Shown: positions 22,977 through 29,784 of the stretch, piece by piece
How positions within the stretch are numbered: position 1 is the first letter of the stretch
Layout: each line of letters opens with the position of its first letter
Assembly: GCA_021772635.1 (NCBI GenBank)
Contig: JAJFLP010000122.1
Coordinates: forward strand, 40,079-104,078
Direction of reading: 5' to 3'
From: Verrucomicrobiota bacterium
Lineage (GTDB): Bacteria; Verrucomicrobiota; Lentisphaeria; JABSQK01; JAJFLO01
DNA: 64,000 nucleotides
Program-made: the position numbers and the translations under genes
Notes under the pieces: model-generated
Databases searched by the model: none
Told to the model about the DNA's origin: nothing
Seen by the model: the letters and a program-made list of their open reading frames with translations, nothing else

Positions 22977-24230
22977 TTAACTTGCCGTGGAATACAGTAG
23001 AAAGCGCTTCAGAGCAGCCTGAACTTCCGTCAGACATTTGCTTCCGAAGTAGCGGATACTAAGTAATTCCTGTACTGATTTTGACGCGAGTTGGCCAACC
23101 GTGCGAATATTTGCAGAATGCAGTCCATTCACACTCCGGCGTGATATCTTTAGGATTGATAGGGGAGCGTTACAGGCGTTGACGAAGTTTTTGTTGTCGG
23201 CGGATTCCCGGATATCCATAAACGATTCAACGATCGGAACTGACTGAACGCTCAGCTGTCCGTTCTTCCGCCGACTGACTTTGTCGAGTACAGAGCTACT
23301 ATCCTTGCTCGCCGCGGTGTCTTCTCCGCCTTTCGATCTGTCAGCGGAAACGGTGTTCCTGCTTCTTCCTTTACTCCGCGATCCAGTTAGTCGTTGAAGC
23401 TTCCCGTGGTTATCGATGCGTTCGTCTTCAATAAGTGTTTTCAGACGTTTCAGAGAGTGCATCTGAATCTGTCTCACCCGCTCTCGCGTACGACCAATAA
23501 TAACACTAACCTCTTCCAAAGTTTTTGGTCGGCTTCCGTCTAACCCATAGCGCATCACGAGGATTGTCTGTTCGCGTTCGTCCAGATTGTGAATTAAACC
23601 GCGGAGCCGTTGGATCGTCTCTGCATCTTCGATGATATCATTCGGTTTGATCGCGCTGGTGTCTGGGATTATATCCTCGAAGCTACCGTCTTCTCCCTTC
23701 TGGATCGGATCGTGCATCGAAAACGTCCTAAGATCGGCGAGCTTCAATCCTTGGATTGTTCGTTTGGTGAGATCTAAGTATTCCGCGATTTCATTATCGG
23801 TTGCTGCGCGGCCGTACTTTTCATTGAGGTGTATTTTGGCAGCTCGAATCTTATTGATTTTGCCAGCTGACGCGACAGGAACTCTAATCGTCCTACTTTT
23901 CTGAGACAGGGCACGACGCATCGCCTGTTTTATCCACCAAGCCGAATAACTGCTAAACTTGGCTCCTTTCAGCGGATCAAATTTCTCCGCCGCGCGCATA
24001 AGCCCGATATTCCCCTCAGAAATTAAGTCGAGAAGCGGTAACCCGAGCCCCTTAAAATCGTGTGCAATTTTTACAACCAACCGCAGATTTGCTTTGATAA
24101 GCTTGGCCTTGGCGACAGCATCCCCAGCCTTAATCTTCGCAGCGAGTTCGATCTCCTCTTCTTTGGTGATCAGCGGAATCACGCCTATGTCCTGCATATA
24201 GGCTTTCATTGGATCGTTATTGCGATACAT
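22977..24230 (-). CDS. Sigma-70 family factor with C-terminal RNA polymerase alpha-CTD-like domain
   Basis: 417 residues. Regions 1.2 to 4 of a primary-type or group 2 sigma factor are complete: DPMKAYMQDIGVIPLIT (6-22), LRLVVKIAHDFKGLGLPLLDLISEGNIGLMRA (49-80), FSSYSAWWIKQAMRRAL (92-108), and the region 4.2 helix-turn-helix EVSVIIGRTRERVRQIQ (240-256). Region 1.1 is absent. After a basic, serine-rich linker (about 280-350), residues 356-413 resemble the alpha-subunit CTD without gaps: R365, N368, G396, K398 and E402 fall on E. coli alpha R265, N268, G296, K298 and E302. It has a TTGACA-17-TACTGT promoter. The tail is in frame and ends normally. Confidence 0.9.
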   Translation of the reverse strand: MYRNNDPMKAYMQDIGVIPLITKEEEIELAAKIKAGDAVAKAKLIKANLRLVVKIAHDFKGLGLPLLDLISEGNIGLMRAAEKFDPLKGAKFSSYSAWWIKQAMRRALSQKSRTIRVPVASAGKINKIRAAKIHLNEKYGRAATDNEIAEYLDLTKRTIQGLKLADLRTFSMHDPIQKGEDGSFEDIIPDTSAIKPNDIIEDAETIQRLRGLIHNLDEREQTILVMRYGLDGSRPKTLEEVSVIIGRTRERVRQIQMHSLKRLKTLIEDERIDNHGKLQRLTGSRSKGRSRNTVSADRSKGGEDTAASKDSSSVLDKVSRRKNGQLSVQSVPIVESFMDIRESADNKNFVNACNAPLSILKISRRSVNGLHSANIRTVGQLASKSVQELLSIRYFGSKCLTEVQAALKRFLLYSTAS

Positions 24231-24307: not shown

Positions 24308-24336
24308 ACAGTATTCATGCCGGAAATGAATGTCAA
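24308..24336 (-). promoter_or_regulatory. Sigma-70-type promoter of the sigma factor gene
   Basis: On the minus strand TTGACA (24336-24331), a 17-base spacer and TACTGT (24313-24308). Start of transcription would fall near 24301, giving a leader of about 70 bases. The region is AT-rich upstream (TATATGTATTTATTTTTTC on the plus strand). Confidence 0.75.
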
Positions 24337-24471
24337 CGGCCGTATTTAGATATATGTATTTATTTTTTCATTGTAGAATTCGATCCCGAACGTCAGAGTA
24401 TCGCTGAGGCAGGCGAAGATCCTATATTCCAAATTACGAAACTTTCGTTTCGCTTGATAGTGAATAACGAC

Positions 24472-25503
24472 ATGAAAAATGCTGCAAAAACATTAATCCG
24501 CGCGGTGATCGGTATCGGTCTAGCGGTTTTTCTTATTTCAAGCGTTATCCGTCGTAGCGGCGTCGATTTACAATCGGAGTTTGCTAACTGTCGCTGGCCA
24601 CTGATTGTTTTCGCGTTCGCCTGTTATCTGGGCTCAATCGGTTTCACTCTGATTCGCTGGCAGATGCTACTGAAGGTCCAGGGGATTCACCTTAAGATGA
24701 GAGACGTACTTTCCCTCACAATGATAGGGGTATTTTTTAATATGGTAATCCCGGGTGCCGTCAGCGGTGATGTAATTAAGATGGTGTACGTGTCGGAACA
24801 TAGCAAAGGAAAGACTACCGAAGCCGTTACTACGATCTTATTGGATCGGGTTCTTGGGCTATTCGGATTGTTTCTGGTGGCTTTACTATCTGTTTTGGTG
24901 TCTCTCCCGTTCGTACTCGGTGCGTCACTTCAGATTCAGTACGGCGCTGTATTGGTGGGCGGCGGAAGCCTCGTAGGGGTATTGGCTTTACTTACGGTAG
25001 AGTTTCGCGAGAAGATCATGAATCTTCCGGGCGTTGGATCAGTTGTTGATTTCGGAAGGCGTAATGCCCCGCAGAAGGCGACTGGGGTGATCATCCGCCT
25101 AATTGCTGCGTTGGATCTGTACCGGGGTAAACGGATAGTCGTCGGGTACGCCTTACTCTTGTCTATCGCGGTGCACTCATCGTTGGCGGTTGCAGTATTC
25201 TCAGTCGGCCGGAGTTTTCATGAGGAGACTCTGAAACTAAGGCATTATTTTATCTCGACGCAAGTCGCGAACACTGCCGGAGCGATCCCGATAACGCCTG
25301 CCGGTTTCGGAAGCCGTGATATCGTGCTATCAGCATTTTTATTCGAGGCGGGTGCTGAAAAAGAAAAGGCAGGTATAATCCCAGCGTGTTACTCAATTCT
25401 GATCGTAATTTCCAGCTTGATTGGCGGTGTGTTTTTTATTTTCACGAAACGTAAATTGACAAACCCGGACGCAGTCGAAGCGGATAATACTGCGATGACG
25501 TGA
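24472..25503 (+). CDS. Lysylphosphatidylglycerol synthase/flippase-type membrane protein (UPF0104)
   Basis: 343 residues from ATG at 24472; an upstream TTG at 24454 would add six. It is an integral membrane protein with about eight hydrophobic segments. Family landmarks are FTLIRWQMLLKVQGI, MIGVFFNMVIPGAVSGDVIKMVYV, TTILLDRVLGLFGLF and the C-terminal GAIPITPAGFGSRDIVLSAFLF. Members are related to the membrane domain of MprF and to AglD, and are thought to move or modify lipid-linked substrates. The substrate is unknown. It is divergent from the sigma factor gene and stands alone. Confidence 0.85.
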   Translation: MKNAAKTLIRAVIGIGLAVFLISSVIRRSGVDLQSEFANCRWPLIVFAFACYLGSIGFTLIRWQMLLKVQGIHLKMRDVLSLTMIGVFFNMVIPGAVSGDVIKMVYVSEHSKGKTTEAVTTILLDRVLGLFGLFLVALLSVLVSLPFVLGASLQIQYGAVLVGGGSLVGVLALLTVEFREKIMNLPGVGSVVDFGRRNAPQKATGVIIRLIAALDLYRGKRIVVGYALLLSIAVHSSLAVAVFSVGRSFHEETLKLRHYFISTQVANTAGAIPITPAGFGSRDIVLSAFLFEAGAEKEKAGIIPACYSILIVISSLIGGVFFIFTKRKLTNPDAVEADNTAMT

Positions 25504-28285: not shown

Positions 28286-29689
28286 TTACTCCGAGTTCTT
28301 TAGAACCGCAAGTTCCTTGGCAAGTTCCCGGCTGAGTGCAAGCTGGCCAGAATATTTTTCGAGGCAACGTTGTTCTCTTTTCGCGAGCTCTCGTTGTGTA
28401 TTCTTAAGTTCTGTGATCTCCGATTTTATTTTTCGGTCATCTTCCGAATGTGCTTCGAATCGCAGATTCAGCAGCTTGATACTCTCACGCAGGTGATGGT
28501 TTGTCTTCTGGAGCACGGCTAAATCACGTTCGGCTCGCTGATGCATTCTGCTATAGTCGCGCGCATTGATTTCCTCGAGTCTAAGGGATTCTCGTAAATT
28601 CGCTATTTCCACGACTTTCGACTCGATTTCATTTCTATAACCTAGGTTTCTTTGACCAGACGAATCCTCCGGCGTTTCGGTCGAATCGACAATGATTTCC
28701 ATGTCGCTACTATTGAGGTTATTTTCCACGTAGTGCGGTTCTTGTGAACTTTCGACCAGCCCGCGTAGGCGCGTTACGTCACTCTCCAATTCACTGACCC
28801 GTTTCTGCTTTTCTGTAAAGTGGGATGCTAACGAATCAAACTCGTCCCTCAACGACTCCGCCCGTTTCTTATCGGCACGCATCCTGGACTGAAGCTTTTC
28901 TGCTAAATTCGACTGCCTCTTCAATCGGGCTACGGCAGATTCACGGTCCAACGTTAATTGTCTATTTCGCTTTCGGAGATCGACAATCTCGATCATTCGT
29001 AAGTGTTTCTCTTTTTCGTATCGGATACGTTCAAAAGCGTATTCGTCGGGAGTCCCTCGTTGATCCACAATTAGAGAGGCGCTGAGGTCAGGACTCAGAG
29101 TAGCTGTGCTCGTCGTCTGCCACATCGTTGATATCTGTTCCTCAAGCAGACGTATACGGGCACCCAAGGCCGTATTGGCAATCGTTAGCTCTTCGTTCAA
29201 CAGTTTCAATTGACTGAGTGATGGGGACGCGTGGTATTCGCCAATGATTTTCGATAATTTTTCATTGTTAGTCTCTAGCGCATTGATGGTTATCTGCGCG
29301 GCTACAAGTTTTCCGCGCAACGTCGATATGTCCTCTACGCGAACGGGATTCGAAGCATCGGGAGGCTTGTCTGCCGGAATGCGTTCGAGGGTTTCAATTT
29401 TACGGTCGCAGACATCGAGCTGGAACTGAACGAGTTCGGGATTCCACAGAGGGTAGTTTTTGTGAAGATCCAGGAATATTTTTCTTGCCTCCCGGATAAT
29501 GGATAACGTCATTGCCGGATCAATTACACGCTCTTTCAGTTCCGCCGATTTCAGCATCTCATATCCGCGCGACCAGGCGCGGTCCTGGTTCTCGACCCGG
29601 ATCGATTCCGAACAGTATCCGATGAAACTGCAGAGAACAATGAGCACTCCTGCGCAGACGCTCTCATATCTCAAGAAGAACATTTTCAT
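28286..29689 (-). CDS. Exported or membrane-anchored coiled-coil protein
   Basis: 467 residues from ATG at 29689, chosen because GGAGG stands five bases upstream; the frame itself extends 30 codons further. A hydrophobic N-terminus (YESVCAGVLIVLCSFIGYCSES) looks like a signal peptide or anchor. Residues 30-95 resemble a helical repeat segment (AMTLSIIREARKIFLDLHKNYPLWNPELVQFQ). From about 110 to the end the protein is almost entirely heptad-like coiled coil rich in E, K, R, L and S. I do not recognise a family; such proteins often have structural or scaffolding roles in the envelope. Flanked by long gaps, so probably monocistronic. Confidence 0.75.
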   Translation of the reverse strand: MKMFFLRYESVCAGVLIVLCSFIGYCSESIRVENQDRAWSRGYEMLKSAELKERVIDPAMTLSIIREARKIFLDLHKNYPLWNPELVQFQLDVCDRKIETLERIPADKPPDASNPVRVEDISTLRGKLVAAQITINALETNNEKLSKIIGEYHASPSLSQLKLLNEELTIANTALGARIRLLEEQISTMWQTTSTATLSPDLSASLIVDQRGTPDEYAFERIRYEKEKHLRMIEIVDLRKRNRQLTLDRESAVARLKRQSNLAEKLQSRMRADKKRAESLRDEFDSLASHFTEKQKRVSELESDVTRLRGLVESSQEPHYVENNLNSSDMEIIVDSTETPEDSSGQRNLGYRNEIESKVVEIANLRESLRLEEINARDYSRMHQRAERDLAVLQKTNHHLRESIKLLNLRFEAHSEDDRKIKSEITELKNTQRELAKREQRCLEKYSGQLALSRELAKELAVLKNSE

Positions 29690-29784
29690 AGTCACCTCCG
29701 AATTTAGTTCAAGCTCGGGCAGATCCTGCCTGAGTATAGCGCGGTCATCTACCGGTAGCCTCCTACGAAACTTGGTCATTTTGA

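Follow-up and report, generated by a model that had tools for sequence, protein, structure and literature searches.

A sigma-70-family factor with an RNA polymerase alpha-subunit C-terminal domain after region 4 in one order of Lentisphaeria

In a 64,000-nucleotide stretch of a Verrucomicrobiota genome of the class Lentisphaeria (contig JAJFLP010000122.1; the whole stretch is called the window here), one open reading frame (ORF) of 417 codons without an internal stop encodes a sigma-70-family factor that carries, after region 4, a domain of the kind found at the C-terminus of the RNA polymerase alpha subunit (the alpha C-terminal domain, alpha-CTD; Table 1). Regions 1.2, 2, 3 and 4 follow one another in order, each above its Pfam cut-off, and the tail scores 55.1 bits with RNA_pol_A_CTD (PF03118), for which the cut-off is 23.8 (E 6.4e-15). 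In sequence comparisons with solved structures the tail finds RNA polymerase alpha subunits, foremost 8dkc_A (E 6e-6), and the full-length protein comes closest to SigA and RpoS. The predicted structure of the tail is helical and has the alpha-CTD fold, and sigma chains are among the best 50 Foldseek matches listed for the full-length model. Profile, predicted fold, residue conservation and conservation across the order thus uphold the sigma-plus-alpha-CTD identity, with a complete region 1.2–4 core, that a first-pass annotation had proposed from the sequence. It had also described a gap-free alignment to the E. coli domain; E. coli alpha chains match weakly, with stretches of equal length on both sides (1lb2_B, residues 355–407, E 0.021). 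The linker had been called basic-rich, which holds for the window protein (net charge +4 over 86 residues) and fails for the family, where the spacer after region 4 ranges from 46 to 91 residues and from −12 to +6 in charge.

The counts given here refer to the 120 homologues listed by a profile search in which 8000 proteins were scored; 60 of these 120 (P0001–P0059 and P0062, the window protein included) combine regions 1.2, 2, 3 and 4 with PF03118; one fragment (P0121) holds regions 3 and 4 with the tail. In each of the six genomes of the order analysed here, PF03118 is matched twice, by rpoA and by a single ORF that also encodes a sigma factor. The named public members, all of them metagenome assemblies, comprise four titled as Lentisphaeria and one as Verrucomicrobia. 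The source label of one fusion, P0050, is a Rhodothermales metagenome-assembled genome. Because these 60 homologues share the single-chain architecture, a frameshift joining two separate genes is excluded in practice, and a sequencing or assembly artefact is ruled out by the same proteins. Two near relatives of the same clade are without the tail (P0061, 316 residues; P0060, 303 residues, with an end unlike that of its neighbours) and would suit an account in which the fusion is either such an artefact or a neutral, functionless relic. That account is nevertheless highly improbable given the number of fusions, their presence throughout the order and the low ratio of nonsynonymous to synonymous substitution in the tail (dN/dS 0.056, from one pair), by which the tail looks constrained. 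In a tree built quickly from 124 sigma cores the 60 fusions and the two tail-less proteins form one 62-row group (SH-aLRT support 91, no bootstrap), adjoined by a tail-less paralogue from the window's own genome (L005) on a long branch whose placement is unsure; the three label changes on this tree fit one gain of the tail and two losses. The first-pass annotation had also suggested checking whether the CTD of the genome's own rpoA is intact or altered. That gene is intact (L043 3377–4408, 343 residues, with DLELSVRAQN and FGQKSLTEL), and the tail therefore does not compensate for a lost alpha-CTD, a candidate explanation that is ruled out.

The tail keeps some of the DNA-contact residues of alpha and has changed others. 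In E. coli numbering, the UP-element contacts R265, N268, G296, K298 and E302 correspond in the window protein to R365, N368, G396, K398 and E402, all five as previously listed, and across the 60 fusions the R265, N268, G296 and E302 equivalents are invariant and that of K298 is Lys in 59 and Arg in one. That list had left out the positions that are changed, namely C269, N294, S299, D259 and E261. On the DNA surface the window protein has G369 for C269, Y394 for N294 and C399 for S299, and the family agrees, with Ser or Gly at the first position in 55/60, Tyr or Phe at the second in 54/60 and Cys at the third in every fusion; R265 and N294 are both among the DNA contacts of the alpha-CTD given in an excerpt of one study (PMC5511352). 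Because the acidic face that contacts sigma has been lost and several DNA-surface positions have changed, the tail is, as its sequence reads, a modified CTD and not a copy of that of alpha.

In an excerpt of a published account, alpha-CTDs sit at about −42 and −52 and the proximal one contacts sigma region 4 (PMC4496709). It seems somewhat probable that the tethered domain acts comparably, with the tail predicted to grip A/T-rich DNA through its minor groove immediately upstream of the −35 element, beside region 4, and a spacer of the lengths seen here could reach both the −42 and the −52 subsites. Such a grip would therefore be likely to give the sigma factor an UP-element contact of its own. 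The sigma would bring its own UP-element reader to a polymerase whose alpha retains two CTDs, making three CTD modules per holoenzyme, and this holoenzyme would be expected to prefer promoters bearing an A/T-rich upstream element. The earlier suggestion that the CTD contact is fixed near −35, or replaces or competes with the normal alpha-CTD, is carried forward here as a hypothesis.

The alpha-CTD is also a landing pad for activators (PMC5511352), and the several changed DNA-surface positions, with a Cys that never varies at the place of S299, could indicate a surface for a new partner. The tail might then be mainly a protein-docking module, to which an activator or other partner binds and so recruits the fusion sigma, with DNA contact secondary; the complete conservation of the R265, N268, G296 and E302 equivalents makes this unlikely. 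Positions 286–287, which in E. coli alpha belong to an activator-contact patch, are moreover variable across the fusions, and no conserved regulator gene was seen adjoining the fusion gene.

The charges at the sigma–CTD contact bear on how the predicted minor-groove reader might be arranged. R603 of sigma70 is met by D259 and E261 of alpha (PMC5511352, excerpt), and the window tail has I359 and K361 at these two alpha positions. Of 38 alpha chains, 36 have an acidic residue at the E261 position (L008 has Gln and L011 Asn; the pattern used to pick alpha chains required Ser at 299, and 38/38 loci matched it), and in the 60 tails this position is basic in 33 and acidic in two. On the sigma side, the R603 position is acidic in 58/60 fusions and in 27/60 tail-less relatives among those listed, and it is Arg in the RpoD-like sigma of this genome (L004). 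Acid at the 268 position and base at the 361 position occur together in 32/60 fusions, the window protein having E268 and K361. These residues possibly form a charge-swapped, private sigma–CTD contact, in which region 4 with its acid would pair with the often basic tail and not with the acidic face that the cell's alpha-CTD presents. The acid at the R603 position is partly older than the tail, and the charge swap may therefore be an exaptation rather than a product of co-evolution. A more elaborate proposal is that the two parts make an orthogonal one-chain pair: the acidic region 4 would be unsuited to the cell's alpha-CTD, the tethered, charge-inverted CTD would replace it, and the sigma would read a private promoter class of −35 plus UP element within a three-CTD holoenzyme. 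This is doubtful, though worth stating as a tentative possibility. The same pairing of charges, together with a spacer long enough to fold back, could instead describe an intramolecular brake, in which, as long as sigma is free, the K361 face covers region 4 at its acidic end, to be released on binding to core polymerase or DNA. Such a brake is quite improbable, since the predicted model does not pack the tail confidently on region 4 (pTM 0.32) and invariant DNA-binding residues would be needless to it.

With regions 1.2 to 4 all present, the fusion sigma fits the non-extracytoplasmic-function (non-ECF) part of the sigma-70 family; the possession of regions 1.2 and 3 besides 2 and 4 sets it outside the ECF class, and no alpha N-terminal domain family appears among the Pfam matches, so that it is not an alpha subunit. 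As a group 1 (RpoD) factor it fails, with no region 1.1, region 1.2 beginning at residue 6 and scores far under the cut-offs of the RpoD models, and the RpoS equivalog TIGR02394 is not reached either (272 bits against 378.7). Because five ORFs of this genome match sigma region 3 and L004 matches RpoD best (though below the cut-off of that model), the fusion is an extra sigma factor and probably not the primary one. The conservation of W98, W99, Q102, R249, E250 and R253 in 60/60 fusions is suggestive, and only suggestive, of core polymerase binding and initiation.

The fusion appears confined to one order among the genomes surveyed. In the class, 197 genomes were searched with PF03118 at E ≤ 1e-6 and matches were counted per genome; nine have two matches, comprising the six of the order and G057, G149 and G177. 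The second matches of G149 and G177 are pieces of rpoA at contig ends, and one extra match in G033 at a looser cut is a DNA ligase-like ORF. No fusion was found in the 191 class genomes outside the order; eight of these lack any match, and lone matches were only counted, so that a fusion standing in place of an unassembled rpoA could have escaped notice. G057 holds a small free CTD protein (L054 1459–1842, minus strand; a 128-residue open frame, PF03118 E 3.9e-13), next to frames that by eye resemble phage head genes. Across 387 genomes sampled from the phylum and searched with the A2 profile, matches again being counted per genome, five from outside the class have two matches (G199, G377, G383, G391 and G405), and the second protein is never a sigma with region 2 (judged by eye for G383). 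In G383 that observation concerns L064, an open frame of 361 residues that ends in an alpha-CTD-like part and begins with one that by eye is not alpha. Searches with the tail alone covered 31 and 47 candidate proteins. Searches of the open-licence full-text literature aimed at a sigma–alpha-CTD fusion showed no published description of one among the papers listed.

Set beside known systems, the tail shares with the alpha-CTD (PF03118; 1lb2, 3n97, 7vpd) its profile, its predicted fold and the equivalents of R265, N268, G296, K298 and E302, and differs in being carried by sigma, with Cys for S299, a mostly aromatic residue for N294 and a mostly non-acidic E261 position. Group 1 and 2 sigma-70 factors (SigA, RpoS) have the same regions 1.2, 2, 3 and 4, whereas the fusion lacks region 1.1, adds the spacer and alpha-CTD and, where R603 would stand, carries an acid instead of Arg. 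Tail-less Lentisphaeria sigmas (L003 of this genome; P0063, P0120) have a closely related sigma core but no CTD, and most of those listed end about 20–50 residues past the QI of region 4.2. Among the tail-less relatives, the chain of P0070 continues into another domain, and long Lys/Ala-rich N-terminal extensions occur in P0082, P0083, P0085, P0087, P0091, P0095, P0096, P0099, P0109, P0119 and P0120. Four proteins from other classes of the phylum (L065–L068) also hold a CTD and a region-4-like part in one chain, although with the CTD N-terminal or internal, ahead of the region-4-like part, which in L066 and L067 falls under the Pfam cut-off; because the CTD comes first and neither region 2 nor region 3 is detected by Pfam, they are not sigma factors by this test. 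ECF41 factors are ECF-type sigmas whose regulatory domain is of a different kind from the alpha-CTD. They nonetheless offer a parallel for a sigma with an extra fused domain, as an excerpt describes (PMC3426412).

The number of shuffles out of 300 that reach the best −35/−10 score upstream of the sigma gene is 39 for the window's own gene and 130, 259, 0, 6 and 175 for G001 to G005, and only the scores of G003 and G004 stand out because none and six shuffles reach them. A divergent LPG_synthase_TM neighbour is found in the window, in G002, G003 and G004 (by Pfam) and in G001 (by eye), and not in G005; this membrane-protein neighbour hints, and does no more than hint, at an envelope link of the fusion sigma. 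Elsewhere in the window, 28286–29779 on the minus strand encodes a predicted 497-residue protein with no Pfam match that looks coiled-coil-like by eye, and Rfam gave no match over the whole window.

Table 1. Positions of the fusion sigma gene, its parts, and related features (window coordinates unless a locus is named).
Feature	Position	Strand	Basis or remark
Fusion sigma ORF (sigma + alpha-CTD tail), 417 residues	22977..24230	minus	ORF translation, Pfam
Sigma region 1.2, residues 6–37	24120..24215	minus	PF00140 (Sigma70_r1_2)
Sigma region 2, residues 44–114	23889..24101	minus	PF04542
Sigma region 3, residues 124–198	23637..23861	minus	PF04539
Sigma region 4 (−35 reader), residues 213–264	23439..23594	minus	PF04545
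Codon of E268 (sigma70 R603 position)	23427..23429	minus	ungapped alignment to SigA
Spacer, residues 269–354; poorly conserved, predicted largely disordered	23169..23426	minus	alignment, structure prediction
Alpha-CTD-like domain, residues 355–408	23007..23168	minus	PF03118 and predicted fold
Codon of K361 (alpha E261 position)	23148..23150	minus	alignment of 60 fusions
Promoter-like TTGACA-17-TACTGT upstream of sigma gene	24308..24336	minus	39/300 shuffles score as high; not significant
Divergent LPG_synthase_TM membrane protein (context only)	24454..25503	plus	PF03706
LPG_synthase_TM beside fusion gene, other genomes	L039 5187–6179; L040 1599–2660; L041 1441–2460		PF03706
CTD + region-4-like proteins	L065 1360–2523; L067 1321–2514; L068 1384–2478	plus	
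CTD + region-4-like protein	L066 1–2247	minus	

The reading of a promoter is normally split, with sigma recognising the −10 and −35 elements and alpha the UP element. A natural chain that joins sigma and CTD would directly test why the two are kept separate, and it would also test how much weight the contact between region 4 and the alpha-CTD carries and whether a sigma factor can own a class of UP elements. The fusion also provides, ready-made in nature, a single-chain layout for a sigma factor with extended promoter specificity.
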